34,100 nt of DNA from Flavobacteriales bacterium (lineage in GTDB: Bacteria; Bacteroidota; Bacteroidia; Flavobacteriales; Flavobacteriaceae). Under the pieces are notes generated by a model. It saw nothing but the letters and a program-made list of their open reading frames with translations. It ran no database searches and had not been told where the DNA came from. The stretch covers positions 1-34,100 of the forward strand of contig JAMONV010000050.1 of the NCBI GenBank assembly GCA_027066365.1, written 5' to 3'. Each line of letters opens with the position of its first letter. The stretch's first letter is position 1. Positions 1-33,642 of this stretch are shown here, piece after piece. Both the position numbers and the translations under genes were made by a program.

Positions 1-10
1 AAACCACTAA

Positions 11-280
11 TTACACGAATGGACACGAAGAAATTAGTGAAATTTCCACAGGATAAACCTGAAATTCGTGCAATTCGTGAAATTCGTGGCGAAAAAAAAC
101 ATTAATTACACGAATGGACACGAAGAAATTAGTGAAATTTCCACAGGATAAACCTGAAATTCGTGCAATTCGTGAAATTCGTGGCGAAAAAAAACATTAA
201 TTACACGAATGGACACGAAGAAAAAAGAAAAAATTTGTGTAATTCCCACAGGATAAACGTGAAATCCGTGGAAAAATAAC
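11..280. repeat. Three tandem copies of a 95-bp intergenic repeat
   Basis: Two copies (11-105 and 106-200) look identical by eye. A third (201 to about 280) has diverged in its second half. Each unit contains a shorter internal repetition of an AATTCGTG-type octamer (three in a row near the end of the unit) and a CCACAGGATAAAC core. No open frame runs through the array. Dispersed intergenic repeats rich in 'attcgtg' are familiar from Bacteroidota genomes. Their function is unknown to me. The two identical copies imply recent duplication or gene conversion. Confidence 0.9.
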
Positions 281-436
281 ACGAATCATTTGCGAAAAAC
301 CGGCAAACCCGTAAAACACTGACAATAAGACTATTAACCAGTTTTAGTTAGAAGATTATTAAAATTTTTTCATCCCGAATCTTCGAAAATGACGATTTTT
401 TTGTAAATTGTATTCGTCATTTGCGAAAAATCGTCT

Positions 437-727
437 GAAGGCGATCTTTGATATTATTGATTAACAACAAGTTACAATACTACCAAAATAACAATTTTCG
501 AAAATGCAAAAACTGTCCGGTGACCCAGAATTACTTGCGAAATTTTTTTCATGCTAACTTGTTTAAAATCAACAAAATAACATTTTTAATGTACCGAAAT
601 ATACGTTTTGAAAAAATCTTAAAAATGCATTTGCGAAAAAATGCATTGGTTGTTAAAAAACAAGAGAATCAAGTAATTAGAATTAATTTGATTTTTTGTA
701 TATTTGTAACATATTGATAATCAAGGG
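437..727 (+). promoter_or_regulatory. CRISPR leader with promoter-like element
   Basis: This AT-rich non-coding stretch lies before the first CRISPR repeat. The repeat ends in GAAAC and the degenerate repeat is at the far right end, so the leader belongs on this side. A TATATTTG at 699-706 matches the Bacteroidota -7 element TAnnTTTG and would start transcription about 15 nt before repeat 1. I see no clear -33 element. A related string occurs twice, at 446-465 (CTTTGATATTATTGATTAAC) and 702-722 (TTTGTAACATATTGATAATC region), so the leader core may be duplicated. An open frame at 448-717 exists but is AT-driven and has no protein-like features. Confidence 0.6.
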
Positions 728-1486
728 GGCGCCTCCTTCTTACAGCGCAAGCTGACTGAAACAACGTGGGGTTCTCAGTTTCATGCCCGCAATCCGTTAG
801 GCGCCTCCTTCTTACAGCGCAAGCTGACTGAAACAAAGCAAGGATCATCCTTCTCGCAAACTTTGATTTCGGGCGCCTCCTTCTTACAGCGCAAGCTGAC
901 TGAAACAGGTTTTTTAAGGTTTTCAGAACACCTATAACCGGCGCCTCCTTCTTACAGCGCAAGCTGACTGAAACTCTATTTCTATTTCATTTTTATAGAA
1001 ACTTATCCCTTCTGGCGCCTCCTTCTTACAGCGCAAGCTGACTGAAACTGTATATGATTTACCACAATATAAAAAAATAAATGTTACAAATGGCGCCTCC
1101 TTCTTACAGCGCAAGCTGACTGAAACAAATAAGACAAATACATTTTATAGCCAAAATTACAGCGGCGCCTCCTTCTTACAGCGCAAGCTGACTGAAACTT
1201 TAAGTGTGTAGCTAGTTTAGTTAATGAGCGGCTTTTGAGGCGCCTCCTTCTTACAGCGCAAGCTGACTGAAACGGGGTTTCCCTTATTATTTCTTCGACT
1301 CGTTCCGCGGGCGCCTCCTTCTTACAGCGCAAGCTGACTGAAACTTGACAGACTATGAGAAGTCAGAAGTGTTAAATGATGAGGCGCCTCCTTCTTACAG
1401 CGCAAGCTGACTGAAACGTTATGTTCTCCGCCCTATTTTCTGGGCGGTTTAGGCGCCTCCTTCTTACAGCGCAAGCTGACTGAAAA
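728..1486 (+). CRISPR. CRISPR array, 11 repeats of 35 bp, 10 spacers
   Basis: Repeats start at 728, 800, 872, 940, 1014, 1092, 1164, 1239, 1310, 1383 and 1452. All appear identical except the last, whose final base is A instead of C. The base before each repeat varies, which fixes the length at 35. Spacers are 33-43 nt. The repeat begins GGCGCCTCC and ends GACTGAAAC, and it contains CAGC-GCAA-GCTG, a 4-bp stem closed by a GNRA-type tetraloop. The GAAAC end and the degenerate right-hand repeat indicate + strand transcription from a leader on the left. Variable, long spacers and a GAAAC-ending repeat fit type I or III better than II or VI, but no cas gene is present, so the type is not decided. 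Spacers 2, 4 and 10 contain perfect inverted repeats of 6-7 bp. Confidence 0.98.
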
Positions 1487-1943
1487 GAAGCGCTATAACC
1501 GCCGCAACCCAGCCGGTCTTTTTATTTTTCAGTCGGCCGCCCGGCCGGGGTAAACTCACTGCCACCTTGCTTGAAGTTTATCCGATGGATGAGACGGTGA
1601 TTTATTGAGTGAGTGAGGCCATCAGACATTTCAGAATCCCTGCAACTTCCCCAACCGAACTTTAAAAAAAACTTGGAATAGAACGATTGAACCGGCTTTA
1701 AAAATAAATTCATTACGATTTTTCTATTTATTACCAACCAAATAAATAATTTTATATATTTTAATATTTTAGCACGCATCTTAACAACACAAACATTATT
1801 TGTTTACAATATTTTATAAAATCGTATTAACGAATAAATGTTAATTGCCTCGAAATTGACGAAAATTTATTACAAAATCTTTATTTGTTTATTTTTTTAT
1901 TATATTTGCATCAAATTATAAAACCTGCCCAAATTCTCTTGTT
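1487..1943. other. Intergenic region between CRISPR array and sensor kinase
   Basis: No convincing gene here. A minus-strand open frame at 1522-1779 has no recognisable features. The right half (about 1780-1940) is very AT-rich and presumably holds the promoter of the kinase operon. The left part (1487-1660) is more GC-rich and could be remains of older sequence, but I recognise nothing in it. Confidence 0.6.
1901..1908 (+). promoter_or_regulatory. Candidate -7 element for the kinase operon
   Basis: TATATTTG matches the Bacteroidota consensus TAnnTTTG and lies 35 nt before the kinase ATG. No TTG/TTTG is found at the usual 19-21 nt upstream distance (the nearest, at 1884-1887, is too close), so this is a partial match. 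Confidence 0.4.
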
Positions 1944-4037
1944 ATGTCTATATATAAAATAAAAAAAACAGATATTTTCATTCATTTATTGTTTATTTTC
2001 ATTATTTTTCCTTGGAATTTAACAGGGCAATACGTATCTCACCGGGATAGTTTTTCCGGGTTATACAAGCGGGCGTTGCGCCTAAATAATGATTCTTTAA
2101 AGTTAAAATATTTACACTTGCTCGCTCAAGCTTACATGTATGCCAATCCGGACTCGTTAAAGATTTTGTCGGATTCTTTGTTAAGCATGGCGACGTCTTT
2201 ACATAGTGATAAATACACAGGGATTGCGTATAAATTATTGGGAAATTATTATTCCGTTAATTTTCGAATGGACTCCGCTCGATATTATTTCAAAAAATCC
2301 CTTCAATTTTCCGAAAAAGCCGGAGATTCCATGACATTGGCTCTGATTTTGGTAGGTATGGGAAACAGTTATACGGATTACGTCCCGGATTCGGCGCTTT
2401 TTTATTTTAAAAAAGCTCTGGAGATAAATAAATCAATTGATAATCAAGACGTTTTTTTTATCACTTATTACAATTTGGGGGTTTTGATGAATAATCATGA
2501 AAAACCGCAAAAGGCGATGGATTATTTTCTCTTGGCTGCGAAATATGCGGATTCCATTCATTATGTTAAATATCACGGTTACGTCTACAATAACCTTGGT
2601 ATGTTGGTTTTGAATTACTTGAAAGATACGCTCAAAGCCAGGCAATATTTTGAAATAGGTTTAAAAGATTTCGAACAAATAAAGGATTTAAGAGGTCAAA
2701 GCCTGATTTACGAAAGTTTGGCAAATTTTGTTACGGAAAAAGCCATTCATTATTCCCTAAAGGCTTTGGCTTTAAGCAAACAAGTGGGCGATAAGGGAAA
2801 TATTACGGTTTTTTCACATAATATAGGCATGCGTTATTTGGATAGAAACCAACCGGACTCGGCGGAATTTTATTTGAGGCAATCCGTAAGTTTAGCTAAA
2901 AAATATGGTTTCCAAGATCTGCTTTTGCAAAGTTATAGGGAGCTCGGAAGGGCATACATGCTGAAAAAAGAGTGGAAAAAAGCCAAAGAATATCTGGAAA
3001 AAAGTTGGCAATTGGCACAAAAAGACACCGTTTTGGAATATAAAATACAAGCCCTGTATTATTTGTCCGACTGGGCTAAAGCCACTCAAAATTTCAAGCA
3101 GGCTTATGATTATTATACACGAGCCGATTCACTGGAAAGCATCAGGGATTCTCTGGTTAATGTAAAGGCTATCAAGGAAGTGGAAACCCAATACCAAACC
3201 GAAAAAAAAGAGCGCGAAAACCTGCAGTTGAAAAAAGAAAAAGCCGAACAAGCGTTGCTTATCCAAAGGCAAAAGCAACGTAATCGTATGTTGGTTGCCG
3301 CATCGGCCGGAACCTTGTTGCTGAGCGGTGTTTTTATGTTTTTCTGGGTACGCATTCGCCGGAGAAACGCTGAAATTCGTAGACTTCACCGCATTCTTGC
3401 GCATCGCACCAAAGGCTATTTGGAAAAAATCAACGATTTTATCGATTATATCAAGGAATTCATCGAACGGACACAAGCCACACCGGATCAAGTTAAAATC
3501 AAAATCGAGGAGCTCAAAAGCCGTATCATGACCATTATTCGTGCGCATGAACTCATCATGAGCGGGCATGGACGCGACGGAAAAATCAACCTGAACGAAT
3601 ATGTGAATACCCTGGTGAACGAATTGCGTTCCATGCTGAAGGATAAATCCATAGCCATCCGGACGGATATTGCGCCGGACCTGTATTTGGACGGCAATCA
3701 GGTGTTGCCGGTGGGATTGATTGTGGACGAATTTGTGATGAATAGTTCCAAGTATGCTTTCGACAAAAATCACCCGTCGCCGGAGATAAGCATCCGTTCC
3801 TACGAAGAAACCGGGCGGCTGATATTGGAAATGCAAGACAACGGGCGTGGCGGCGATGTAAAAAACATTCAAGGCTCGGGTTTCGGATTGTTGTTGCTCG
3901 AAAAGATTATACATAAGCAATTGAAAGGCAAGATGGAAATAGACGGCACCAAGGGTTTTAGACTGCGGGTGGAAATACCGTTTGTAAAAAATTATACCGA
4001 ACGGACAACAGAACAAACCAAAACACATCCGATATGA
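1944..4037 (+). CDS. TPR-containing sensor histidine kinase
   Basis: A 697-residue membrane sensor kinase that should autophosphorylate on histidine and pass phosphate to the regulator encoded next. An N-terminal hydrophobic stretch (about residues 11-28) looks like a signal peptide. Residues about 35-400 are tetratricopeptide-like helical repeats (recurrent A/L-x-x-Y-F-K-K-A/S patterns), expected to be periplasmic. A coiled coil (about 406-447) precedes one transmembrane helix (about 449-469). The kinase core follows: the likely phosphoacceptor is His487 in LAHRTKGYL, resembling HisKA_2-type dimerisation domains. The ATPase has its N box at Asn600 (EFVMNSSKYAF), a G1 motif from Asp632 (DNGRGG) and a G2 motif at 644 (GSGFGL). 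The stop overlaps the next start by 4 bp (ATGA), so the pair is translationally coupled. This TPR-TM-kinase layout is common in Bacteroidota. The signal sensed is unknown. Confidence 0.9.
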   Translation: MSIYKIKKTDIFIHLLFIFIIFPWNLTGQYVSHRDSFSGLYKRALRLNNDSLKLKYLHLLAQAYMYANPDSLKILSDSLLSMATSLHSDKYTGIAYKLLGNYYSVNFRMDSARYYFKKSLQFSEKAGDSMTLALILVGMGNSYTDYVPDSALFYFKKALEINKSIDNQDVFFITYYNLGVLMNNHEKPQKAMDYFLLAAKYADSIHYVKYHGYVYNNLGMLVLNYLKDTLKARQYFEIGLKDFEQIKDLRGQSLIYESLANFVTEKAIHYSLKALALSKQVGDKGNITVFSHNIGMRYLDRNQPDSAEFYLRQSVSLAKKYGFQDLLLQSYRELGRAYMLKKEWKKAKEYLEKSWQLAQKDTVLEYKIQALYYLSDWAKATQNFKQAYDYYTRADSLESIRDSLVNVKAIKEVETQYQTEKKERENLQLKKEKAEQALLIQRQKQRNRMLVAASAGTLLLSGVFMFFWVRIRRRNAEIRRLHRILAHRTKGYLEKINDFIDYIKEFIERTQATPDQVKIKIEELKSRIMTIIRAHELIMSGHGRDGKINLNEYVNTLVNELRSMLKDKSIAIRTDIAPDLYLDGNQVLPVGLIVDEFVMNSSKYAFDKNHPSPEISIRSYEETGRLILEMQDNGRGGDVKNIQGSGFGLLLLEKIIHKQLKGKMEIDGTKGFRLRVEIPFVKNYTERTTEQTKTHPI

Positions 4038-5112: not shown

Positions 5113-8100
5113 ATGTTTTTAATTTTCGATACCGAAACCACAGGCTTGCCCGATGCGGGATATGATTATAAACACACGGAAAAATGGCCGAGAATTGTCC
5201 AATTGGCTTGGCAATTGCATGATGAATACGGTAGGCTTTTGGAAAAGGGCAATGAAGTAATTAAGCCGGAAGGTTTTACCATTCCGTATGCGGCACAGGA
5301 TATTCACGGCATTTCCACGGAATTGGCCGAAAAAATAGGTAAGCCTTTGGAAGAAGTTTTGGATAAATTCTTTAAAGCATGGGACAAGGCGGAATTTATC
5401 GTAGGGCATAATTTGAAATTTGACCTGCAAGTGATAGCCGCCGAACTCTTGCGGAAAGGAAATGACGAAAAATTTCTGTTCGAAAAAAAAATTTTGGATA
5501 CGGCGGCGGAATATACGGCTGAAGTAACCAAAATCGAAAGAGGAAAGGGAAAAACCGGACGTTATAAAATCCCGAAGCTTGAAGAATTATATGCTTTCCT
5601 TTTCAATGAAAATCTGGATTTTGCCCACAATGCATCGGCTGATGTGGAAGCGAATGCACGTGTGTTTTTCGAGCTAATACGCCGGGGAGATTTCCCGCCG
5701 GAATTGATGAACCGGGATAAGGAATATATAAAAGTTTTTCGTGAGTTTAACCCCGAACCAACCGGTTTATACGGCATTCGGCATTACGATTTTCGAACCA
5801 TGTCGGCCGAATTGATACCGGATGCGGACAAAGAAACCGGTCCCCGAAAAAAAATCTCCGTAGAACATTTTTGTCATTTGCATAATTACAGCCTGTATTC
5901 CATGTTACAATCCACCGTCCGGTTGGAAGATTTGGTAAGGAAAGCAATCGAGGAAAAAATGCCCGCCATTGCCTTAACCGACAAGCATTATTTGATGGGC
6001 ATGTTTTATTTCTTTCAATATTTGGAAGATTACAACCAAAAACAACAAAAGGAGGAAAGCCCGCACTTTGTCAAGCCGATAGCAGGCATCGAGCTGTATG
6101 TGGCGGAAGATATGCATGATCGTTCGAGGAAAGATTTCGGACGCCCGGTGGTATTATTGGCCAAGAACAAAACCGGCTATCAAAATTTGGTCAAGCTTAC
6201 TACCATGGCTTCCGTGGAAGGTTTCTATAATAATCCGCGAGTGGATATGGAAGCCATACGCAAACACAGCGAAGGTTTGATGATGCTAACGGGAGGAATG
6301 GACGGGGAAACGGCTCAGTTGATTTTGGAAAAAGGCGAAGATATAGCTTTGGACCGATTGCTACGTTGGAAAGAAATTTTCGGTGACGATTTATATTTGG
6401 AAGTGATGCGTCACGGCTTGGACAAGGAACGTGCAGTGAATGAAATTTACAAGCGTTGGAGCAAAGAATACGGCATCAAGCCGGTAGCCACAAACCATGT
6501 GCATTATTTAACCGAAGAAGAAGCGGAAATCCATGAAATACTCTTGGCCGTAAAAAACGGGAACGTGCTCTCCGATCCCGCAGGCGAAGGCTGGCGATAC
6601 CGGAAGAAATTACCCAACAATCAGTATTATTTTAAGCCGGCCGAAGAAATGGGCGCGCTGTTTGCTGACTGGCCGGAAGCTATTGAAAACATTCATGAAG
6701 TTATCGATAAAGTGGAAGTTTATTCGCTCAAGCGAGAAGTGGCCATGCCACGTTTCGAAGTGCCGGAAGCATTTCGTGTGGAAAGCGATCCCGAGGCTTC
6801 CGAAAAGGCTTATTTGCGTCACTTGGTGGAGGAAGGAGCCAAGCGGCGATGGAAAACAATCACGCCGGCGATTCGCAAGCGCTTGGATTATGAATTGGAT
6901 GTTATCGAAAAGCTGGGATTTGTGGGTTATTTCCTTATTGTTCAAGACGTGATGAACAAAGCCCGGGAGATGGGCGTATTTGTAGGAGCGGGACGAGGTT
7001 CGGCAGCCGGGTCGGCGGTGTCTTACACGCTGAATATTACGAACGTAGACCCCATCAAGTATGATTTACTATTCGAGCGATTCCTTAATCCCGACCGCAA
7101 AAGCCTGCCCGATATCGATATGGATTTTGACGATATAGGCCGGTCTAAAGTGGCCGAATATGTCGTGCAAAAATACGGTGAAGACAAGGTGGCACATATT
7201 ACCACCTACGGCATTATTAAAGCCAAAACGGCCATTCGGGATACTTTTCGCGTGCTGGAGCTCCCTTTGGATGAAGCCAACCGCTTGGCTAAACTAGCCC
7301 CTTCGGATAAATTGACTTTGAAAGAAATTTTAGAACTTTCCCCTGCCGAAATCAGGCAATCCAAAGTCCAACCCAAAGAATTGCCCGGCGTATTGAAGTT
7401 GAAGGAAATCGTTGAAAACGACCCTAAAATCCGTGAAGTAATTGCGAAGGCTTCGCAGTTGGAAGGCTCCATCAGACAACCGGGAGTCCATGCCGCCGGC
7501 TTTATCATTTCGCCGATAAAGATCGACGAAATCATGCCTTTGTATAAATCCCGGAAAGCCAAGGATGAATTGCTTATCACGCAATACGATAAAGACGTGG
7601 TGGAACTGGCGGGTTTGATTAAAATGGATTTTTTGGGAATTCGCACCCTCAGTATCGTTAAGGATGCACTCCGATTAATCAAAGAACGACACGGCGTGAA
7701 TATCGATATAGATGCTTTGCCTTTGGACGATTCCAAAACTTACGAATTGTTTCAACGCGGATTGACCGTTGGGATTTTCCAGTTCGAATCCGCCGGCATG
7801 CGAAAATACCTCAAGCAACTCAAGCCCACCGAATTTGAAGATTTGGTGGCGATGGTGGCGCTTTACCGGCCGGGGCCGATGGAAAAAATACCCAATTATA
7901 TCAACCGGAAATTCGGGCTGGAGCCGGTTACTTACGATTTGCCCGAAATGGAAGAATACCTGAAATCCAGCTATGGCATCACCATTTATCAGGAACAGGT
8001 AATGTTGTTATCCCAAAAATTGGCCGGTTTTACGGGTGGCGAAGCCGATAATTTGCGCAAAGCCATGGGCAAAAAGAAAAAAGCAGAGCTGGATAAATTG

Positions 8101-10358: not shown

Positions 10359-12794
10359 ATGCCTATGAAGCGACATCCTCACCCGGACGATTGGCTCATG
10401 CAAAACACCGACGCCGATATCATTCCCATGCTGACCCCCGAAGAATTGAAAAAGCTCACCCGCGAACCCATGCCGGACGAACTGCCTTTGTTGACATTAC
10501 GCAATAACGTGCTTTATCCGCTTTTGGCAGTACCGGTTTCGGTACAACGGGACCAATCGGTGCAATTGCTCGAAGAAGCCGTTAACAAAGATAAAATCAT
10601 AGGTGTCGTATCGCAACACAATCCGAAAATCGATAACCCCGGGCCTAATGACATTTTTCGCGTGGGAACCATGGCACGAATTATTCGTATGATTAAAATG
10701 CCGGAAGGATCCATGACGGTGATTTTGCAAGGCATCAAGCCCTTTAAAATCCTACAATTTACGCAAACGCAACCCTATTTGAGAGCACGTGTGGAAGAAA
10801 TTCCCGAAATCTACCCCGGTCAGGACCCCGAATATCACGAAATTACCCGGCAAATCAAACAATTGGCCATCAAAGCCATTAAAATCAATCCGGCGGTTCC
10901 TTCCGAAGCCGTCATGGCTGTGGAAACCATTCCCGACCCATCCATGCTCGTCAATTTTATTATGTCCAATCTCGACTTGCCCGTTAAAACCAAGCAACAA
11001 GTCTTGGAAATTCACAACTTGAAAGAACGTGCCATCGAAGTATTGAAATTATTGAAAATCGAACTGGAAAAATTGGAATTGAGGCGCGAAATTGAACAAA
11101 AGACTCAAAGTGCACTGGACAAACAGTCTCGTGAATATTTTCTGCATCAGCAAATCAAAACCATTCAGGAAGAATTAGGCGACGCTTCGGCACAAGAAAT
11201 CGAAGAAATGCGCCAAAAGGCCAAAACCAAAAAATGGTCGCAGGAAATAGCCGAAAAATTTGAAAAAGAACTTAACCGGTTACAGCGACTCAATCCCCAA
11301 ATGGCCGAATATGCCATTCAAAGAAATTATCTCGAATTATTGCTCGAATTACCATGGAACGAATATTCCGAAGATAAATTCGATCTGGAAAAAGCGCGCC
11401 GCATACTCGATAGGGATCATTACGGACTGGAAGACGTAAAAAAACGCATTATCGAATATTTGGCCGTGCTGAAGTTGAAAAAAGACATGAAATCGCCCAT
11501 CCTTTTGCTTTACGGACCGCCCGGCGTGGGCAAAACTTCCTTGGGCAAGTCCATAGCCGAAGCCGTGGGACGCCAATATGTGCGTATGTCTTTGGGAGGA
11601 TTGCGCGACGAAGCCGAAATACGCGGACACCGGAAAACCTATATCGGAGCCATGCCGGGTCGCATTATTCAAATGATTAAAAAAGCGGGCACTTCCAACC
11701 CCGTTTTTATTCTGGACGAACTCGATAAACTCGGCTCCGACTACAAGGGCGATCCTTCAAGTGCTTTGCTCGAAGTGCTGGATCCGGAACAAAACAAAGA
11801 ATTTTACGATAATTATTTGGAAATTCCTTATGACCTTTCGCGCGTAATGTTTATCGGAACCGCCAATTATTTCTATGATATTCCGTGGGCATTGCGCGAC
11901 CGCTTGGAAGTGATTCCCATTTCGGGTTACACCATTGAAGAAAAAACCGAAATTGCCAAACGCCACCTTATTCCCAAGCTTTTGAAAGAACACGGTGTCA
12001 AAGAAGAACAATTCAAAATAGGAAAACGTTTGATAGAACGCGTGATTATTCATTATACCCGCGAATCGGGCGTGCGCGGATTGGAAAAACAATTGGCCAA
12101 ACTCATTCGTCACCGAGCCATGCAAATCGCTACGGAACAAGATTTTAAACCCGCTTTGAATAAAAAAGATTTGACCGAAATTTTGGGACCGGAGAAATTT
12201 CCTTCGGAGCTCTATGAAAAACATCCCATTCCGGGTGTAGTGACGGGGTTGGCATGGACGCGCACCGGCGGTGATATCCTCTTTGTTGAAGCCGTGCTAT
12301 CCAAAGGAAAAGGTTTGACTATCACGGGTAATCTCGGCAAAGTAATGAAAGAATCGGCCACCATCGCTTTGGAATATATCAAAGCCAATGCGAAAAAATT
12401 CGACATTGATCCGCAAATATTCGAAGAGCAAAAAATACACATTCACGTGCCAGAAGGCGCCACGCCGAAAGACGGTCCTTCCGCCGGTATAACACTTTTT
12501 TCGGCCATACTTTCGGTATTAACCGGAAAAAAAGTGAAACCGCGATTGGCCATGACGGGTGAAATTACGCTTCGCGGAAAAGTGTTGCCCGTAGGCGGTA
12601 TCAAAGAAAAAATATTGGCGGCCAAACGAGCCAAATACAAAGAAATTATCCTGCCGGCCGAAAACCGTAAAAACGTGGAAGAAATCAACCCCGAATACAT
12701 CGAAGGATTAACATTTCACTACGTGAAACGCGTGCCGGAGTTGGTCAAAATGATTTTTGAGGAAAAAGCCAAAAATAAAAAGTCCGAAGCGTGA
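10359..12794 (+). CDS. lon: ATP-dependent protease Lon
   Basis: 811 residues, typical for bacterial LonA, a cytosolic hexameric AAA+ serine protease that degrades misfolded and regulatory proteins. The substrate-binding LON domain covers about 40-240 (LLTLRNNVLYPLLAVPVSV). A coiled coil around 245-310 links to the AAA+ module with Walker A GPPGVGKTS (Lys392) and Walker B FILDELDK (Asp453-Glu454). The C-terminal protease domain has the nucleophile Ser708 in KDGPSAGITL and the paired Lys751 in GGIKEK, with the same 43-residue separation as Ser679/Lys722 of E. coli. The last four bases overlap the GTG of the following sir2 gene, so both are read from one transcript. Confidence 0.98.
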   Translation: MPMKRHPHPDDWLMQNTDADIIPMLTPEELKKLTREPMPDELPLLTLRNNVLYPLLAVPVSVQRDQSVQLLEEAVNKDKIIGVVSQHNPKIDNPGPNDIFRVGTMARIIRMIKMPEGSMTVILQGIKPFKILQFTQTQPYLRARVEEIPEIYPGQDPEYHEITRQIKQLAIKAIKINPAVPSEAVMAVETIPDPSMLVNFIMSNLDLPVKTKQQVLEIHNLKERAIEVLKLLKIELEKLELRREIEQKTQSALDKQSREYFLHQQIKTIQEELGDASAQEIEEMRQKAKTKKWSQEIAEKFEKELNRLQRLNPQMAEYAIQRNYLELLLELPWNEYSEDKFDLEKARRILDRDHYGLEDVKKRIIEYLAVLKLKKDMKSPILLLYGPPGVGKTSLGKSIAEAVGRQYVRMSLGGLRDEAEIRGHRKTYIGAMPGRIIQMIKKAGTSNPVFILDELDKLGSDYKGDPSSALLEVLDPEQNKEFYDNYLEIPYDLSRVMFIGTANYFYDIPWALRDRLEVIPISGYTIEEKTEIAKRHLIPKLLKEHGVKEEQFKIGKRLIERVIIHYTRESGVRGLEKQLAKLIRHRAMQIATEQDFKPALNKKDLTEILGPEKFPSELYEKHPIPGVVTGLAWTRTGGDILFVEAVLSKGKGLTITGNLGKVMKESATIALEYIKANAKKFDIDPQIFEEQKIHIHVPEGATPKDGPSAGITLFSAILSVLTGKKVKPRLAMTGEITLRGKVLPVGGIKEKILAAKRAKYKEIILPAENRKNVEEINPEYIEGLTFHYVKRVPELVKMIFEEKAKNKKSEA

Positions 12795-13180
12795 AAGATG
12801 TGGAACAAGCCGCCCGTGCCATCGGGCAAGCAGGGCATTTAGCCGCGTTTACCGGTGCCGGTATTTCGGTGGAAAGCGGCATTCCCACGTTTCGCGGTCC
12901 CAACGGGATTTGGTCAAAATACGATCCCGTTTATTTGGATATCGATTTCTATCGTACCCATGCCGATCAAGCATGGCCGGTGATCAAGGAAATGTTTTAT
13001 CGTGACATTTCCCGGGCCCATCCCAATCAAGCTCATCAAGTATTGGCGGATTGGGAAAATAAAGGCTTGCTGAAAGCTATCATCACGCAAAATATCGACC
13101 GCCTCCATCAAAAAGCGGGAAATAAAAACGTCATAGAATATCACGGTAATGCCGAGGAACTTGTTTGTATGAATTTATAA
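12791..13180 (+). pseudogene. Sir2-family NAD-dependent deacylase, truncated by prophage insertion
   Basis: Only 129 residues, against about 230-250 for a bacterial sirtuin. It starts at GTG 12791, overlapping the lon stop (GTGA). The N-terminal half is well conserved: FTGAGISVESGIPTFRG (20-36), QNID (100-103) and catalytic His118 in EYHGN. The frame ends just after Cys126 (LVCMN then stop), where the family has CxxC for zinc. The first bases after that point no longer resemble host sequence: an AT-rich non-coding stretch and then prophage tail genes follow. The missing half (second zinc pair and NAD-fold completion) should lie beyond the other end of the prophage, outside the window. The protein is almost surely inactive. 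Confidence 0.92.
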
Positions 13181-13345
13181 TTCCCAATTCCAAATATCAA
13201 TCACAAAAAAACAAATCCACTAAATTTTTTAGCATAGCTTATTTGTTAATATTCTTATAATCTTAATAGTATAAATATTTCCTATAATACCAAAACAAAA
13301 GCCGGCCAAATGACCGGTTTTTATATTAACGTGCCGGGGGCTTTT
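13181..13345. other. Prophage end, non-coding
   Basis: This 165-bp AT-rich stretch lies between the sir2 fragment and the tail fibre gene. It contains a loose direct repeat (AATATTCTTATAAT near 13248 and AATATTTCCTATAAT near 13274) of the kind that could be transposase binding sites at a Mu-like end, plus a terminator at 13297-13322. The exact end and target duplication cannot be fixed without the other prophage end. Confidence 0.5.
13297..13322. terminator. Intrinsic terminator after tail fibre gene (both directions)
   Basis: CCGG (13302-13305) and CCGG (13314-13317) form a stem around an 8-nt loop. The stem is extended by a G.T pair and by AAAA (13297-13300) pairing with TTTT, leaving a T run on either strand. 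Its place just after the stop of the leftward tail operon suggests it ends late transcription before the prophage boundary. Confidence 0.6.
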
Positions 13346-20414: not shown

Positions 20415-22205
20415 TCAAGATATTGCCGCTTCCGTATCCCGGACGGCGCTTGTAAGCGCTTCGGACACCATGTCCCTGATCCGGGCTTTGCTTTCCGTAA
20501 GGTTTTGCGCCTGTACGATAAGTTTGTCCACCAATTTTTCGATACGCACCGTTACGTTACGCCCGCCTCCGGACGTGCCTCCGCCGTGCACGGTTCCGCC
20601 GGCTTGGGTTTTTGAACCGGAAAAACGGGTACGTTTGTATAATCCCGGTAAGATGTCTTCCGGCGCCTTGTTTTCTTTTACCACCGGACGCACGGTATCT
20701 TCCGTTTCGGCTTTGACCGTTACCTCACCGGAAATTTCATTATCATCGCCGAAAAGTCCCTTAATCCATCCTATGGCTTTCTTCAACGGCTCGATGACCT
20801 TTTTCTTAATCCAATCCCATATTTTGGCAAACGTATCGCCGAACCAACCGAACTTTTTAGCCACCCATACAAAGGCCGCGCCCAACGCCACAATACCCGC
20901 GATAATCAACCCGATAGGATTGGCACTCATGGCAAGGTTCAAGGCCCATTGCGCTGCCGTTACAACCGCCGTCCGGGCGGCTAAAATCCCTTTAAGCGAA
21001 ATATCGCGAAGGGTCAATACCATATTCTTTGTTTTCATCGCTATGCCCACCATCATAGCTTTGATATTTTGCCATGTTAATAATTTTAGCACTTTCATCA
21101 ACGGAATTAAGGCCGTTATGGCACGTCCTAACCGGATAGACACATCCACCGCCGGCATCATCCATCCGGTAAGCTTAGTAAAGCCGATTTGAAGATCGGT
21201 TACCCATGCTTTGAGTTTGGCCATCTTATGAGACAAAGTACCGGTACGGATTTCGGCTTGCTCCATGGCCACGTTGGTGCCGGTAACTTTCCCGGTCATT
21301 TCGTCCACCGCTTCGGCATTTTGGATCAGGAATTGGGCGGCATTCACATTTTCCATGCCGAAGGTTTTTACAAGGAATTCCGTATCCTTCAATTTCGGTT
21401 TCAAGGCCGCCAGGGCCTCCGAAAGCGAAGTTTGGCTAAAATCCACCCCAAGGGCCGTTTGCATCCGTAAAATAATGTTGCGCATGGCCGTACCGGCTTC
21501 GGCGCCTTTAATGGCGTTTTTGCTCAATACTTCCAATCCGCCCACCAATTGTTCCATATCCAATCCCGCTCCGGCGGCGGCCGATCCGGCCACCTTAAAG
21601 GATTGCGCCAATTCGGGCACTTCGGCGGCGCCGTATTTCGCTCCGGCCGCCAATACATTGACCACCCTCGCCGCCTCTGATGCATCCAAACCGAATTGAT
21701 TAATGGCTGCACTCATGGCATTGGCTGCCGTGGGTAAATCCAAGCCGGATGCTTGCGACAAAAGAATGGTTTGCCGTTGCAATTCCTTCAAACCGTCGAT
21801 ACCTATCTTATCCACCGATATTTGGCTTGCCAACAACTTAAAGGCTTCGGCTGCTTCCGATGCACCAAGCGCCGAACTTCGACCTACACGTCGTGCCGTT
21901 TTTTCCAATTCTTTCAAGTCCTTACCCGTAATTCCCGTAATGGCCGATAAATCCGCCATGCTTTGCTCAAAATCCATCCCCGATTGGGCAATCTCGCTAA
22001 AAGTGTTTCCTACTTCTTCAAGTACATCAACCCATGCCCCGTATTTGACCACGTCGAATTCGTTGGCTATCTTGTTAAATGAATTGACGGTATTATCTTT
22101 AAATGAATCCACTATCCCTGTAAGATGTGTAAATTGGGATTTCAACTCCTTAATAGCCACAAGGACATTACCTTCTATATTGATAAGTAACTTGATATTA
22201 TCCAT
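20415..22205 (-). CDS. Tail tape measure protein
   Basis: 596 residues. The N-terminal half is helical with the TP901-type tape measure pattern: MDFEQSMADLSAITGITGKD, RSSALGASEAAEAFKLLA, then LPTAANAMSAAINQFGLDAS and GAEAGTAMRNIILRM (about 78-250). A hydrophobic region (about 395-455, including LNLAMSANPIGLIIAGIVAL) may insert in the host membrane during DNA ejection. The C-terminus has a glycine-rich linker and a helix. At this length the tail would be short to medium. The gene begins just left of a divergent moron gene whose promoter overlaps this coding start. Confidence 0.9.
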   Translation of the reverse strand: MDNIKLLINIEGNVLVAIKELKSQFTHLTGIVDSFKDNTVNSFNKIANEFDVVKYGAWVDVLEEVGNTFSEIAQSGMDFEQSMADLSAITGITGKDLKELEKTARRVGRSSALGASEAAEAFKLLASQISVDKIGIDGLKELQRQTILLSQASGLDLPTAANAMSAAINQFGLDASEAARVVNVLAAGAKYGAAEVPELAQSFKVAGSAAAGAGLDMEQLVGGLEVLSKNAIKGAEAGTAMRNIILRMQTALGVDFSQTSLSEALAALKPKLKDTEFLVKTFGMENVNAAQFLIQNAEAVDEMTGKVTGTNVAMEQAEIRTGTLSHKMAKLKAWVTDLQIGFTKLTGWMMPAVDVSIRLGRAITALIPLMKVLKLLTWQNIKAMMVGIAMKTKNMVLTLRDISLKGILAARTAVVTAAQWALNLAMSANPIGLIIAGIVALGAAFVWVAKKFGWFGDTFAKIWDWIKKKVIEPLKKAIGWIKGLFGDDNEISGEVTVKAETEDTVRPVVKENKAPEDILPGLYKRTRFSGSKTQAGGTVHGGGTSGGGRNVTVRIEKLVDKLIVQAQNLTESKARIRDMVSEALTSAVRDTEAAIS

Positions 22206-22222
22206 GTTTTTTCTTATCTTTG
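22192..22222 (+). promoter_or_regulatory. Promoter of the moron gene
   Basis: TTG at 22192-22194, a 20-nt spacer, and TATCTTTG at 22215-22222 match the Bacteroidota -33/-7 promoter (TTTG, 19-21 nt, TAnnTTTG) at the right spacing. It faces right, against the late operon. The -33 part lies inside the start of the tape measure coding region. Confidence 0.75.
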
Positions 22223-22239
22223 TTTAAAATTCGGAATTC

Positions 22240-22443
22240 ATGACCGAAAAACTTCACAAGCTTTATATCATTTTTGTGCTGTTTATTATCGGTTGGCTTG
22301 GATTTGCCATGTTTTCCATTGGTGTTTCTTCCTTTTGGGAAGCCCTTCAAGTTATTGTCGGACTTTTGCTTGGTGGTGTGTTTCTTCTTTCGCTATGGTC
22401 CGTGTACGAACCTACGTTTCGCCGTTGGGAATCTAAAGACTGA
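22240..22443 (+). CDS. Two-TM small membrane protein, moron gene
   Basis: 67 residues on the + strand, opposite to all surrounding tail genes, with its own promoter 18 bp upstream. Two hydrophobic helices (about 7-29, KLYIIFVLFIIGWLGFAMFS; and 35-56, ALQVIVGLLLGGVFLLSLWS) and a charged C-terminus (FRRWESKD). Its last 97 bp overlap, tail to tail, the end of the frameshifted tail chaperone. The gene fits the definition of a moron: an extra, independently expressed gene inserted between late genes, probably active in the lysogen. Possible roles are superinfection exclusion or another change to the host envelope. No family is recognised. Confidence 0.7.
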   Translation: MTEKLHKLYIIFVLFIIGWLGFAMFSIGVSSFWEALQVIVGLLLGGVFLLSLWSVYEPTFRRWESKD

Positions 22444-22960
22444 TCACTGAACATCCTCGCCAACACTTCCGCTAAAGCCGTTTGCATCTTTCGCAATTCG
22501 TATTCTTCCAACCATTCGGCTTCCGTATGATATTTAATGAACTCTTCTTCACTCATTTGTTCCGGATCCTTGCCGTATCGCCACCGCACCAAAGCAAAGG
22601 CTTTTCGCCACAGGTCCGCTTTCGGATCCGGATCTATCAGGGCGGCGGTTAGAGCTTTTTTAAGCGTGCCGTTTTGGCTTTGAACACCCCTTGCAACTGC
22701 TGAATAACGCCAAGCTTGGCTTCGTCGTCTTCCTTGATGCGCTCGTCTCCGCCCAGCCAAGTGTTTTCAAACAACACAATACCGGATTTCACCGGATCGC
22801 TCTCGGCAAAGCGGGCAACGGCCGCAATGACGTTCAAATCCGGCTTGCGGAAATAGCCTACGGCAATGTCCTTGCCTTCTTCGTCCATCTCCACTTCGAT
22901 TTCATATACCTCGCCGTATTTGGCCTTCCAACGCTTGATTTGTGCTTCTGTTACTTTCAT
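22347..22960 (-). CDS. Tail assembly chaperone, -1 frameshift long form
   Basis: Produced by a -1 shift at A AAA AAG (22661 down to 22655), giving about 204 residues: residues 1-102 from the short form, then ALTAALIDPDPKADLWRKAF and onward to the stop at 22347. The second part contains RWRYGKDPEQMSEEEFIKYHTEAEWLEEYELRKM, a helical region like the T part of lambda G/GT-type chaperones. It lies between tail tube and tape measure, the standard place. The last 32 residues are antisense to the moron gene and look low-quality (S/R/T-rich), as if the original end had been replaced. Confidence 0.8.
22649..22960 (-). CDS. Tail assembly chaperone, short form
   Basis: 103 residues, between tail tube and tape measure genes. 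Helical, ending KAKTARLKKL. The protein begins MKVTEAQIKRWKAKYGEVYEIEV and contains a strand-rich segment GYFRKPDLNVIAAVARFAES, common for the G-type chaperones that coat the tape measure before tube assembly. The slippery site lies two codons before the stop. The ATG is preceded by GGGATTT-type heptad repeats (22961-22983). Confidence 0.75.
   Translation of the reverse strand: MKVTEAQIKRWKAKYGEVYEIEVEMDEEGKDIAVGYFRKPDLNVIAAVARFAESDPVKSGIVLFENTWLGGDERIKEDDEAKLGVIQQLQGVFKAKTARLKKL
22655..22661 (-). promoter_or_regulatory. -1 ribosomal slippery site A AAA AAG
   Basis: In the short-form frame the codons are TTA AAA AAG CTC TAA. The heptamer A AAA AAG is the same as that of E. coli dnaX and fits the X XXY YYZ rule in the correct phase. 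The -1 frame is open from here for over 100 codons of protein-like sequence. Tail chaperones of long-tailed phages are widely known to use such shifts. Confidence 0.85.
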
Positions 22961-30068: not shown

Positions 30069-31229
30069 ATGGCAACCAAACAAAAAAAACGCAAACAACG
30101 TCCCAACCGCATCGTGGACAAACTCATCGTAACTTATACCCGCCGTGCGCGACACGACATCGCCCAATGGCAAGCGGCATTGGCTTTGGCCGAAAATCCC
30201 GAGCGCCCGCGCCGGTGGATGCTCTACAATATATACCGCGACATCCTTCTGGATCCGCACCTGACGGCCGAAATCCAAAAACGCACCCTGGCTGTTACCG
30301 GTGCGTCCTACCGGCTCATCGACAAAAACGGAAAAGACAGCGACCGCACCGAACTCTTACAACGCGAATGGTTCGACAAGCTCTTGCAATGGATTTTGGA
30401 AGCCCGCTTTTGGGGCCATTCGCTCATCCAGATCGATACGCTTCATGCCGGCGAAATCGACCGGCTCGAATTGGTGGACCGGCGCCACGTGGTACCGGAA
30501 CAGGGATTGTTCCTTCCCAATATGTTCGACGATAAAGCAATACAATACCGCGATCCCAAATATTACCGCTGGCTCATCGAAGTGGGCGAATACCGCGATT
30601 TAGGATTGCTCAACAAAGCCGTTCCCCACGTGCTCTTCAAACGATTCGCACAAAGCGCTTGGAGCGAATTCACGGAAATTTTCGGCATGCCCATCCGTAT
30701 AGCCAAAACCAATACCAATGACACCGAAGCACTCAACAGATTGGAGCAAATGATGGTGAACATGTCCACTGCTTTTTATGCCGTAATCGATTATGACGAA
30801 GCCATTGAATTTATCGAAACGGCAAAAACCGACGGAGCCGTCTATGACAAACTCATCGACAGGTCCAACAGCGAAATATCCAAACTTATTTCCGGCGCCG
30901 TCTTGGGCGAACGCTCGCCTGGCGGAAGCCGCGCCAAAGAACAGGTGGGCAAAAACATCAGCGACCAAATCACCGCCGCCGACCGCCGCTGGATCGGACG
31001 CGTCATGAACCATTACGTGTTGCCCAAACTGATTCGCTTGGGCTATCCGTTCCAAGGTTTGCGCTTCGCATTCGACGTGGAACCGGACATCAACCAACTT
31101 TGGGAAATCACCAGCGGTGTGCTCAATCACTACGACGTGGATCCCGAATTTATACGCACCACCTTCGGCATTCCGGTCACCGGAAAGAAAGAACAACAAC
31201 TGGGCATTCCGGACGATTTTTTCGATTAA
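30069..31229 (+). CDS. Portal protein (DUF935, Mu gp29-like)
   Basis: 386 residues. Recognisable DUF935 features: YNIYRDILLDPHLTAEIQKR near 53-72, ARFWGHSLIQID near 115, VPHVLFKRFAQSAWSEFTEIFGMPIRI (about 186-212) and the GAVLGERSPGGSRAKEQVG segment (about 276-294) in the second half. It forms the ring through which DNA enters the head. It is shorter than Mu gp29 (over 500 residues), lacking an N-terminal extension, but the core motifs are intact. Confidence 0.88.
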   Translation: MATKQKKRKQRPNRIVDKLIVTYTRRARHDIAQWQAALALAENPERPRRWMLYNIYRDILLDPHLTAEIQKRTLAVTGASYRLIDKNGKDSDRTELLQREWFDKLLQWILEARFWGHSLIQIDTLHAGEIDRLELVDRRHVVPEQGLFLPNMFDDKAIQYRDPKYYRWLIEVGEYRDLGLLNKAVPHVLFKRFAQSAWSEFTEIFGMPIRIAKTNTNDTEALNRLEQMMVNMSTAFYAVIDYDEAIEFIETAKTDGAVYDKLIDRSNSEISKLISGAVLGERSPGGSRAKEQVGKNISDQITAADRRWIGRVMNHYVLPKLIRLGYPFQGLRFAFDVEPDINQLWEITSGVLNHYDVDPEFIRTTFGIPVTGKKEQQLGIPDDFFD

Positions 31230-31240
31230 GCCCCGGAGCC

Positions 31241-32440
31241 ATGGACTTCGGGGCGTCCATGGACTTGTATTACAAACAAAACCGAAGCGGTTGCCCCATC
31301 CACGGCGCCCGGTTGAGCGCCGGTGACGAAAAATTGCCCCGTTTCGGGCTCGATGATAAAACGTTAAAACAGGTTTTAAACGACGTTCAAACGCATCACG
31401 AACAACTCCTGAACAAAACTCTCTTTGACTACACTACCGCCCATCTCCATGACGCCATCGACAAGGCCGTGGGCCGCCCCGGACCGGATGATCCTTTCTT
31501 TGAAACTTATCTCAAACTCAAACACAACGTAGCCCGCTTTGCCGCCTATAAAACGGCACACCAGGTAAACGACCTTCGCCAAAAAGCCCTTGCGCAAACC
31601 GATGCGGACAAACAATGGCAAGTGGCACAAGCCATCAATAACCGGTATAATGTCAATTGGCTACGCACCGAATACGTAACGTCCATGCGCCGTAGCAAAG
31701 CCGCCAAAAAATGGCAACAATACCAACAGGACAAAGACCTGTATCCTTACCTGAAATACATCCCAAGCTTGGCCGCCGAACCGCGCAACGAACATAAAAA
31801 ACTCTACGGCATCATTAAACATGTGGATGACCCATTCTGGGACATTTGGCTGCCGCCCAGTGATTGGAATTGCCAATGCCGCGTCAAACAAGTGCGTAGC
31901 GACGAAGGAAGCCGCCCCGTGCCGAAAAAAATCAAGCGCCCTCCGGGCGCATTACGTGTCAATCCCGGAAAAACCGGACAAATCATCACCAACAACCATC
32001 CCATGATCAAATATGCCGGCAAACGACTGGCCGGCAAAAACGCCCCCGAAAAACGAAAAAAAGAAATGACCGAAAGGATTGAAACGAAATTTAGAACAAA
32101 TTATAGGATATTTATTCAAAAAAGATTGAGTAAATTAAAGAATAAATTTTATAAACTACCGGATGGAATTAATGTAATAATTTCAAAAGCAAGTATTGAT
32201 AAAATAATATCTAATGATAATAAGTATTATACAATTTCTAACGCTTTAATTTATCACATCAATGATATTTTAGAAAAAATAAAATTTATTAGAGAAGAAG
32301 AACCTATTGGGAAAAGAAAGATAAATATTAGCACTGTAAGAATATATAAATATGATAATTTTATGTTTTATGTTTGGTTGCTAAAAGGTAAAAACAAATA
32401 CCATATATTACATTCTGTAAATATTAAAGGTGACAAGTAG
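31241..32440 (+). CDS. Mu gpF-like head protein with C-terminal nuclease-toxin-like domain
   Basis: 399 residues from ATG 31241; ATG 31259 is possible, as both lie in a repeated CCATGGACTT. A longer frame from 31100 overlaps the portal gene and is rejected. Residues 1 to about 275 are the Mu gpF / SPP1 gp7 minor head protein: WLRTEYVTSMRRSKAAKKWQQ, RNEHKKLYGIIKHVDDPFWD, LPPSDWNCQCRV. From about 284 on, composition switches to very AT-rich DNA and the sequence (LPDGINVIISKASIDKII, HINDILEKIKFI, VRIYKYDNFMFYVWLLKGK, YHILHSVNI) resembles PBECR-type phage domains (Barnase-EndoU-ColicinE5/D-RelE-like nucleases), known to be fused to head morphogenesis proteins. The nuclease assignment is by pattern, not by identified catalytic residues. 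No immunity gene is seen. Confidence 0.8.
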   Translation: MDFGASMDLYYKQNRSGCPIHGARLSAGDEKLPRFGLDDKTLKQVLNDVQTHHEQLLNKTLFDYTTAHLHDAIDKAVGRPGPDDPFFETYLKLKHNVARFAAYKTAHQVNDLRQKALAQTDADKQWQVAQAINNRYNVNWLRTEYVTSMRRSKAAKKWQQYQQDKDLYPYLKYIPSLAAEPRNEHKKLYGIIKHVDDPFWDIWLPPSDWNCQCRVKQVRSDEGSRPVPKKIKRPPGALRVNPGKTGQIITNNHPMIKYAGKRLAGKNAPEKRKKEMTERIETKFRTNYRIFIQKRLSKLKNKFYKLPDGINVIISKASIDKIISNDNKYYTISNALIYHINDILEKIKFIREEEPIGKRKINISTVRIYKYDNFMFYVWLLKGKNKYHILHSVNIKGDK

Positions 32441-32474
32441 GACCCGCCAGAATAGGACGGACTTGCTTGCCACC
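32429..32474 (+). other. Stem-loop element copy 1, overlapping the gpF stop
   Basis: Arms 32429-32444 and 32459-32474 pair at 14 of 16 positions, including two G.U, around a 14-nt loop. The gpF-toxin stop codon TAG lies inside the left arm. TTTT follows, so it might also act as a terminator. It is paralogous to 32533-32578, and the downstream 39 nt to the next ATG are also similar in both copies. Confidence 0.7.
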
Positions 32475-32513
32475 TTTTATTAGATACTACAAATATATAA
32501 CAAAATTTATACC

Positions 32514-32534
32514 ATGTCAAGAAATAAAAAATGA
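32514..32534 (+). other. Six-codon remnant frame between the two stem-loops
   Basis: ATG at 32514 lies exactly 39 nt after stem-loop 1, in the context ACCATG, as the gpG-like gene start does after stem-loop 2. The frame MSRNKK ends at TGA 32532-32534, touching stem-loop 2. It may be a leader peptide or the remains of a deleted gene. It is too short to call coding. Confidence 0.35.
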
Positions 32535-32578
32535 CGGTAAGTAGGACCCCACGCATGAAGCAGGACTTGCTTACCGCC
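32533..32578 (+). other. Stem-loop element copy 2, upstream of gpG-like gene
   Basis: Arms 32533-32548 and 32563-32578 pair at 14 of 16 positions around a 14-nt loop. Compared with copy 1, two pairs have changed on both sides: T:A to C:G (third pair) and C:G to T:A (sixth pair). Such compensatory change suggests selection on the RNA or DNA fold. It ends 39 nt before ATG 32618. Confidence 0.7.
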
Positions 32579-32617
32579 ATTGATTGGATACCGTAAAGAT
32601 ACAACAAATTTTAAACC

Positions 32618-33181
32618 ATGGCCAATGATTTTGACAAATTTCGCCGAAAATTAGACCGGCTCCAACGTTACATGGAGCGGGACATGCCGCGCATCATCGG
32701 AATTGAAAGCGCCAATTTCTTTTCGGAAAATTTCGACAGGCAAGGTTTCCTTGACAATGGCCTGAAAAAATGGAAAAAGCCCAAACGCACCGATCCCAAC
32801 AGTCCGTGGTACGGATTTCAATACCGCGCCCGCACCAAATTGCCGAGTAACCATCCGCGCCGGCGCGGCGCCAAAAAGCCCTACAAACCGCGCAAAGCCA
32901 ACCCCATCACCAATTTCAGCCCAGCGGCTACCAAAAAGCCCACACTCGTCAATACCGGCCGATTGGCCAACAGCATCGATTTCCGCATCATAAGCCCCAA
33001 AAAAGTGGAAATCTACTCCGACGTGCCTTACGCCGCCGTCCACAACTACGGCGGAACCATCAAAATATTCGGACGCAAAACCACCCGCGTACCGCAACGC
33101 CGGTTCATGGGACCCAGTGCCGAACTCAACCGGCAAATCAAAAAAATCATTGAACAGGACATAAAAAGAATAATGAAATGA
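32618..33181 (+). CDS. Phage virion morphogenesis protein, Mu gpG / P2 gpS-like
   Basis: 187 residues. It starts with a helix (FDKFRRKLDRLQRYMERDMPRI) and has the tail-completion pattern in the second half: LVNTGRLANSIDFRIISPKKVEIYSDVPYAAVHNYGGTI, then RVPQRRFMGPS and a C-terminal helix. These proteins finish tails or join head and tail. It follows stem-loop 2 with a 39-nt leader and overlaps the next gene by 4 bp (ATGA). Confidence 0.85.
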   Translation: MANDFDKFRRKLDRLQRYMERDMPRIIGIESANFFSENFDRQGFLDNGLKKWKKPKRTDPNSPWYGFQYRARTKLPSNHPRRRGAKKPYKPRKANPITNFSPAATKKPTLVNTGRLANSIDFRIISPKKVEIYSDVPYAAVHNYGGTIKIFGRKTTRVPQRRFMGPSAELNRQIKKIIEQDIKRIMK

Positions 33182-33642
33182 AAGCTTATTTCGACCTCAT
33201 CAAACAACGCATCGCGGAACTGAACGAAATCCATTCCGTGCATTGGTATAACGGCCAATACGAACGATATGACGAAACACGCCCGCCGGATCTTCCGGCC
33301 GTGTATGTGGAATTCGACAATCCGGTATATTGGCAAACCGCCGGCGGTGGCGTGCAAGTGGCCCCAGAAACCACCGTGCGCCTTCATCTGGTGGCTAAAG
33401 ACCTGGACGACAAACCGGACAAATTATGGGAATTGGGCGGGCTGTTGCACCGCCATATGCACCTTTGGCCCGTTCCGGATGATGACACCATCATGACATC
33501 CCTCATGCGATCGCAATGGGAATGGCGCCAATACGACCAACTCAAAGTATTGATTATTTCCTATAAAACCGCCTTGTATGATTATTCCACCGTGCCGCAT
33601 ACCACCACGGTATTGCTCCGGCCGGTGATTGAGAAAAAGTAA
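33178..33642 (+). CDS. Mu gp37-like head-tail protein
   Basis: 154 residues. Starts YFDLIKQRIAELNEIHSVHW, has LPAVYVEFDNPVYWQTAGGG, a strand rich in VRLHLVAKDLDD, and LLHRHMHLWP. The layout fits DUF1834/Mu gp37-type tail terminator proteins, and gene order supports it. It is the last gene of the rightward arm in the window and runs tail to tail with the following minus-strand gene. Confidence 0.65.
   Translation: MKAYFDLIKQRIAELNEIHSVHWYNGQYERYDETRPPDLPAVYVEFDNPVYWQTAGGGVQVAPETTVRLHLVAKDLDDKPDKLWELGGLLHRHMHLWPVPDDDTIMTSLMRSQWEWRQYDQLKVLIISYKTALYDYSTVPHTTTVLLRPVIEKK

Follow-up and report, generated by a model that had tools for sequence, protein, structure and literature searches.

A short open reading frame (ORF) that lies antisense at the junction of the genes for the tail assembly chaperone and the tail tape measure protein (TMP) of a prophage raises the question whether it is a gene at all and, if so, what its product does. 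The ORF is located in a stretch of 34,100 nucleotides (hereinafter, the window), which is contig C50 of the 2.03-Mb assembly of a Flavobacteriales bacterium. Within this assembly, there are 41 matches to the Por_Secre_tail domain, which among 14 control genomes was detected only in Bacteroides, in support of an assignment to Bacteroidota. The original prediction took it for a moron that is expressed independently in the lysogen, perhaps for superinfection exclusion, and allowed for an effect of its transcript on late tail gene expression.

The Antisense Gene and Its Predicted Promoter in the Window

The ORF consists of 67 codons on the plus strand, from the ATG at 22240 to the stop codon ending at 22443 (22240..22443). 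The surrounding tail genes are on the minus strand, and the head genes, from 27603 onward, are on the plus strand. One neighbor is the TMP gene (20415..22205, minus strand, start codon at 22205), with matches to PhageMin_Tail (1e-26) and phrog_28 (2.4e-62). The other is the tail assembly chaperone, the short form of which (22649..22960, minus strand) was assigned on the basis of its position between the tail tube and TMP genes and the frameshift site; it matches phrog_19076 (8.8e-28), a PHROGs family of unknown function. The heptamer A AAA AAG (22655..22661, minus strand), read off the sequence and presumably the slippery site, is located at the frameshift, and the open frame that includes the -1 frameshift extension of the chaperone (22347..22760, minus strand) shares its last 97 bp (22347-22443) with the antisense ORF. 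This overlap, the two transmembrane (TM) segments and the promoter motif, all part of the original prediction, were confirmed from the sequence.

The 67-aa protein contains two hydrophobic segments (maximum Kyte-Doolittle value 2.44), and a single-sequence AlphaFold2 model consists of helices 2-28 and 31-66 (mean pLDDT 86.3, pTM 0.57). Given the flanking charges, with Lys/His ahead of the first segment and Arg-Arg behind the second, the protein is probably a helical hairpin with both termini in the cytoplasm under the positive-inside rule. It is an orphan: no homologues were found in 50,697 phage records, in viral contigs (searched with a peptide pattern and tblastn) or in 396 further genomes sampled from the family. 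Comparison with Pfam, PHROGs and PADLOC gave nothing significant for this protein or six relatives, the best Pfam value for the 67-aa protein (0.038) being under the cut-off of the respective model. No terminator-like site, which a moron might be expected to possess as its own, was found on the plus strand from 22443 to 22860.

The predicted promoter of the antisense gene has the form TTG-N20-TATCTTTG, with the -33 element TTG at 22192..22194 and the -7 element TATCTTTG at 22215..22222, both on the plus strand, and 17 nt between the -7 box and the ATG. The sigma-ABfr consensus described for Bacteroides consists of TAnnTTTG at -7 and TTTG near -33, and for Flavobacterium johnsoniae the same source describes the -33 motif as not identified (PMC7366714). 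Compared with this Bacteroides-derived consensus, the -7 box in the window is perfect and the -33 element is TTG rather than TTTG. By itself, the window promoter proves little because the motif is only mildly over-represented there: TTG-N20-TAnnTTTG matches three times against 0.72 expected, and at least three matches occurred in 3 of 100 shuffles. Among the 40 plus-strand ORFs of at least 40 aa that start with ATG inside the minus-strand operon, the antisense ORF is the only one with two TM segments and the only one with a -7 box 3-45 nt upstream. This evidence from within the window is suggestive of a real gene but is not proof.

Recurrence of the Antisense Slot at TMP Starts

The two closest TMP relatives, which were found before any selection, both have the slot occupied. 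One of them (L004, 46% TMP identity) carries a 48-aa two-TM antisense ORF behind TTTG-N19-TATCTTTG; the other (L009, accession MT837149, 47% identity over the match) carries a 53-aa one-TM antisense ORF behind TATATTTG. By eye, neither protein resembles the 67-aa protein from the window. In the remoter first hits (L005-L008 and L010), the slot holds no such gene.

For a census, 427 loci from the earlier hits, further scans and the window, with contig repeats included, were collected after the exclusion of 10 loci (six copies of the window, two HK97 stretches, 6H, and L003). A TMP ORF was detected by BLAST in 373 of these (54 had no match), and 10 more were lost with less than 300 nt of upstream sequence, so that 363 loci with at least 300 nt remained. 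Clustering by the first 300 TMP residues at 90% identity reduced these to 199 clusters; one representative per cluster was judged, and control starts were drawn from the same representatives. A start was scored as positive when TAnnTTTG occurred on the antisense strand between -120 and +40 relative to the TMP start and, 3-45 nt beyond it, an ATG opened an ORF of 30-130 aa that encodes a TM segment, as called with Kyte-Doolittle windows.

The antisense box with a TM ORF, in these cases of 30-95 aa, was found at the TMP start in 35 of the 199 clusters, a fraction that is not a prevalence because most of the TMPs used to build the scan seeds A3-A6 came with a moron; among the 182 clusters free of any seed, 22 were positive. 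The same test at other plus-strand gene starts of the same loci gave 3 positives among 1280 (Fisher p 1e-28 against TMP starts). Two of these three are the starts of TMP remnants in L361, and the third is in L374, where, at 6372, a box and a 109-aa ORF with a hydrophobic segment are antisense at the start of another gene. Regardless of TM segments, a box with an ORF was present at 38/199 TMP starts vs 22/1280 control starts, and a TM segment was present in 35 of the former 38 and in 3 of the latter 22. An earlier, smaller cut gave 24/127 TMP clusters vs 1/776 control starts; without the demand for a box, the counts in that cut were 41/127 vs 110/776, which is less specific. TM ORFs in the sense orientation were found in the same interval in 6 of the 199 clusters, none of them with the promoter box. 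Thus, the box, the antisense orientation and the TM character are associated at the TMP start alone, and the combination of promoter and TM ORF in the relatives is far beyond chance.

The strict signature is missing from 164 of the 199 TMP clusters, with the near cases L022, L027, L031 and L043 scored as negative. In the smaller cut, a gap of at least 60 nt before the TMP was found in 22/24 carriers vs 27/103 non-carriers. When the clusters are ranked by TMP score, carriers comprise 14 of 15 at 600 bits or more and then 20/71, 1/94 and 0/19, a ranking that is partly circular because the reference TMPs are all moron-bearing. Among the clusters that consist of whole-genome loci only, 1 of 15 was positive; this locus (L113, on a 477-kb contig of a genome from the same class) is the sole whole-genome carrier besides the window, and we infer the hosts of the remaining carriers from the promoter only. 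The slot is also occupied in IMG contigs 646206266_000002, 2903906326_000002, 2938284875_000001, 2818991269_000001 and 2775506973_000001, which, judging from the form of their names, probably belong to isolate genomes. By the refuting condition set in the original prediction, a frame not conserved in relatives, the 67-aa protein itself is not conserved, but the slot, its orientation, the promoter and the membrane character recur in a minority of the TMP clusters sampled. Two single cases lack the antisense gene, namely the virulent phage FCL-2, in which a hairpin is seen at this place by eye (its TMP is too distant for the census), and hankyphage p00, in which the upstream frame and the TMP abut. 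The hankyphage RNA-seq data (PMC12135933) were considered as a ready-made test and dropped given that the reference p00 lacks such a gene.

Across the 35 positive loci, TTG is found 19-21 nt ahead of the box in 13 (7 at 19 nt and 5 at 20 nt), against a mean background of 0.68 per spacing outside 17-23, so that the peak is at 19-20. The base after the box is T or C in 33 of the 35 loci, as judged by eye, and the overall pattern resembles the Bacteroides sigma-ABfr consensus. Measured from the TMP start codon, the beginning of the box is located 8 nt upstream in the median case, with a range of -23 to 35. Given that the box abuts the TMP start, the antisense transcript would originate in the TMP leader and be directed away from the TMP gene.

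Constraint and Variability of the Slot Occupants

In the five clearest homologous pairs, three of which share one trio, the antisense frame has pN/pS of 0.41-0.58 (Fisher p 8e-5 to 0.0075); for the close pair L062/L064, the value is 0.26. The weaker pairs (z 5-8), for which homology is doubtful, gave 0.38-0.97, part of these values not being significant. In four matched pairs, dN of the antisense gene is 0.32-0.40 compared with 0.09-0.14 for the TMP. Therefore, where measurable, the antisense genes encode constrained but fast-evolving proteins. Together with the recurrence at the same junction, the purifying selection in the antisense frame gives good support at the sequence level to the predicted independently promoted moron, and the antisense ORF in the window is almost certainly a real gene. 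The slot appears to fit the concept of a phage moron, that is, an extra gene between conserved phage genes that is absent in relatives and, judging from the motif, has a promoter of its own.

The occupants of the slot are mostly unrelated proteins. Within one group of loci with TMP identity of 69-80% (98% for L062/L064), three types of occupants were found, namely {L062, L064, L216}, {L077, L218, L220} and {L219}. Separately, the antisense products of L381, L390, L392, L393 and L361 have, by eye, a C-terminal motif close to (S)G-x-(L/M)-P-W or S-G-L-P, and perhaps represent one family spread over different TMPs.

Among six relatives of the L064 group, the similarity of the occupants tracks that of TMP residues 1-60 (r 0.61, exact p 0.015) compared with r 0.12 (p 0.27) for the chaperone C-terminus, which is little varied (mean identity 0.81) and so leaves less to correlate. 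With an anchored N-terminal part and normalized scores, the correlation in the six relatives is 0.74 (exact p 0.0056), and that with the TMP core is -0.24. A partial Mantel test over 26 loci gave r 0.48 (p 0.0002), 9 of the 35 loci having fallen out because the anchor motif was missing. This covariation may be mere linkage of adjacent sequences. An exception is L216, which combines a gene of the L064 type with a TMP N-terminus that is nearer to L218. The idea that the moron makes the TMP N-terminus hypervariable was rejected given that, at equal core identity, the identity of the N-terminal part is the same with or without a moron. In phage 80alpha, the TMP N-termini are described as lying next to the head rather than at the end of the tail that leads (PMC11661146), which speaks against the exclusion reading given below.

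A Tandem Array of Antisense Genes

In L361 (IMGVR_UViG_2124908002_000008), positions 1-3600 encompass four antisense TM ORFs in tandem, each just upstream of a TMP N-terminus, and three of the four have the strict box. The partner of the first ORF (219-377) is a truncated TMP of 428 aa; those of the second (1923-2072) and the third (about 2602-2751, from an internal ATG) are TMP segments of ~80-100 aa fused in frame to a chaperone C-terminus; and that of the fourth (3273-3407) is a full TMP of 729 aa. The chaperone end ahead of the last three is nearly identical, whereas the TMP starts and the antisense genes differ. We read this arrangement as cassettes that would have been acquired by recombination, with the TMP remnants decaying and the small genes remaining open. 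Given that L361 is a single metagenome contig and that a scan that used one of the remnants turned up no further array, misassembly is possible.

The Prophage Context

The window holds part of a Mu-like prophage that resides in a sir2 gene. The N-terminal part of sir2 (12791..13180, plus strand, PF02146) is cut by the prophage end, with positions 1-113 of PF02146 on C50:12854-13177 and positions 112-180 on C11:4275-4475; the regions of the split are window 12791-13200 and L440 4122-4500. Beyond sir2, C11 encodes an S24-type repressor, a transposase that matches rve weakly (under the cut-off) and an AAA/HTH protein similar to MuB. Both phage ends contain CCAAATATCAA in inverted orientation, some 12-17 bp inside the ends. 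A Mu-type portal and Mu F-like proteins are present, and the gene order is like that of hankyphage p00. A search of the bacterium's own genome for Mu-transpos_C found none, as was the case with every control genome. The split sir2, the repressor and the MuA/MuB-like genes bear out the lysogenic setting that the original prediction had assumed, and, judging from its promoter, the antisense gene is very likely expressed in the lysogen.

Several other features of these contigs are recorded here as observations. Two different sets of portal, Mu F and G-like genes (L440 13824-17440, minus strand, and window 30069-33642, plus strand) seemingly belong to one prophage and might reflect duplication, the presence of another prophage, or an assembly interrupted by strain variants. 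The Mu F-like head protein at window 31100-32440 has an extra C-terminal part (LPD3 match under the cut-off), unlike the C11 version, and resembles MuF proteins with variable C-termini. At window 32440-32620, there is, by eye, an imperfect tandem duplication of ~90 bp in the leader before the G-like gene, the antisense strand of which carries a match to TTG-N20-TATATTTG. Window ~669-1332 is a CRISPR-like array, the repeats of which translate as FQSACAVRRRR on the minus strand.

Comparison with Known Exclusion Systems

The closest parallel in position is HK97 gp15, a 62-aa protein labeled in its record as a moron product, the gene of which, like the gene in the window, lies at the junction of the frameshifted tail chaperone and the TMP. 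gp15 is reported to be a superinfection-exclusion protein, predicted to reside in the inner membrane, and its block is escaped by hybrids with the tail tube and TMP genes of HK022 (PMC10883804). The gp15 gene is in the sense orientation and has an annotated terminator, whereas the window gene runs antisense, has a promoter motif of the Bacteroidota type and is followed by no terminator that could be detected; gp15 has one hydrophobic stretch, by eye, and the window protein two. No local alignment between the two proteins was found at E<=100. Thus, the window gene might work like gp15 but, given the lack of similarity and the opposite orientation, is not a member of the gp15 family. The 'reverse moron product' of HK97, gp23, is likewise encoded by a small gene opposite to the strand of the tail operon but elsewhere in that operon, with a putative terminator annotated and no function in the record.

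Other membrane-associated systems offer further parallels. Ltp of Streptococcus thermophilus phage TP-J34 is described as a membrane-anchored exclusion protein that targets the TMP (PMC3952083); it is a surface-exposed lipoprotein with repeat domains, whereas the window protein contains no cysteine and therefore no lipobox, as would be required for an Ltp-type lipoprotein. SieA of P22 and Sie2009 of Tuc2009 are described as prophage-expressed membrane proteins that block DNA entry (PMC10883804); they belong to other families than the window protein and are likened to it by description only. SNIPE, a membrane nuclease, is reported to associate with the TMP during entry (PMC13190303). As it is established for other systems that membrane-bound proteins interfere at the TMP step, a variable, lysogen-expressed membrane gene next to the TMP gene would fit in with these systems.

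Possible Function and Alternative Explanations

Of the explanations considered, we lean modestly toward a variable moron slot the product of which, made in the lysogen, would prevent the DNA of related phages from entering, perhaps by way of the TMP; superinfection exclusion, as originally proposed, is what we infer in keeping with the position of HK97 gp15. In Bacteroidota-type phages, the recurrent slot comprises a short membrane gene antisense to the late operon, with a predicted sigma-ABfr promoter that abuts the TMP start. In the silent prophage, the host polymerase would produce a small inner-membrane protein from this housekeeping-type promoter, and this protein would keep the genomes of related phages from entering, its probable partner being either the TMP of the incoming phage or the membrane protein of the host on which that TMP relies. 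Upon induction, transcription of the late operon would traverse the gene in the opposite direction and may silence it by collision or antisense pairing, so that the phage's own progeny would not be hampered.

The same promoter and TM evidence applies equally to a small membrane protein that is expressed in lysogeny but has another job, such as a membrane toxin or abortive-infection effector, an antiholin or lysis-timing protein, or a host fitness factor. Small TM proteins serve many such roles, and the variability of the occupants also suits an arms race other than that over DNA entry. We consider this possibility rather unlikely: it leaves the TMP-adjacent position and the covariation with TMP residues 1-60 unexplained, although linkage could produce the latter, and the lack of significant matches in PADLOC, Pfam and PHROGs also counts against it but favors nothing in particular.

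That the antisense transcript rather than the protein matters, tuning expression of the chaperone or the TMP, is suggested by the 97-bp overlap with the chaperone extension in the window and by some overlap with the upstream sense frame in 28 of the 35 loci, in four of them by just 4 nt, under a crude definition of the frame. By the same crude estimate, however, the overlap lies anywhere between -89 and 273 nt, with 7 of the 35 loci at zero or below, the transcript heads away from the TMP start, selection is detectable on the antisense codons, and the box-linked ORFs almost invariably have TM segments. This explanation appears improbable, and the originally suggested influence of the transcript on late tail gene expression is not supported as a conserved role, given the direction of the promoter and the range of the overlap. 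The last alternative, that TAnnTTTG is no more than the complement of an A-rich TMP leader and that the ORF is spurious, is compatible with the mild over-representation of the motif in the window and with the overlap of the box with the TMP leader, but is largely refuted by the census: the rarity of the signature at other gene starts, the peak in the -33 spacing and the purifying selection make coincidence extremely unlikely.

Returning to exclusion by a slot-encoded membrane protein, a broader scheme can be proposed only tentatively, and we regard it as speculative. Under this scheme, Bacteroidota prophages would have a fixed antisense slot at the TMP start, occupied by a fast-changing membrane exclusion gene that corresponds to the type of N-terminus in the neighboring TMP, and the orientation would act as a switch that keeps the gene active in the lysogen and turns it off during transcription of the late operon. 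Cassettes consisting of the chaperone end, the antisense gene and the TMP N-terminus would pile up as in L361, storing exclusion genes against several TMP types, comparable to the orphan immunity arrays of polymorphic toxins.

Short antisense genes are easily overlooked, and the carriers found here come without gene annotation (MT837149) or as bare sequence (the IMG/VR and genome loci). Among the matches listed in open-licence PMC full text, no paper appears from its listing to describe this arrangement. If the proposed function is correct, phages of this phylum would carry exclusion genes of a hitherto unrecognized class at a position that can be predicted, and these genes could be harvested from existing data. 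To our knowledge, there is little work on DNA entry in these phages, and the slot would then also provide a handle on how long-tailed phages cross the inner membrane in Bacteroidota.
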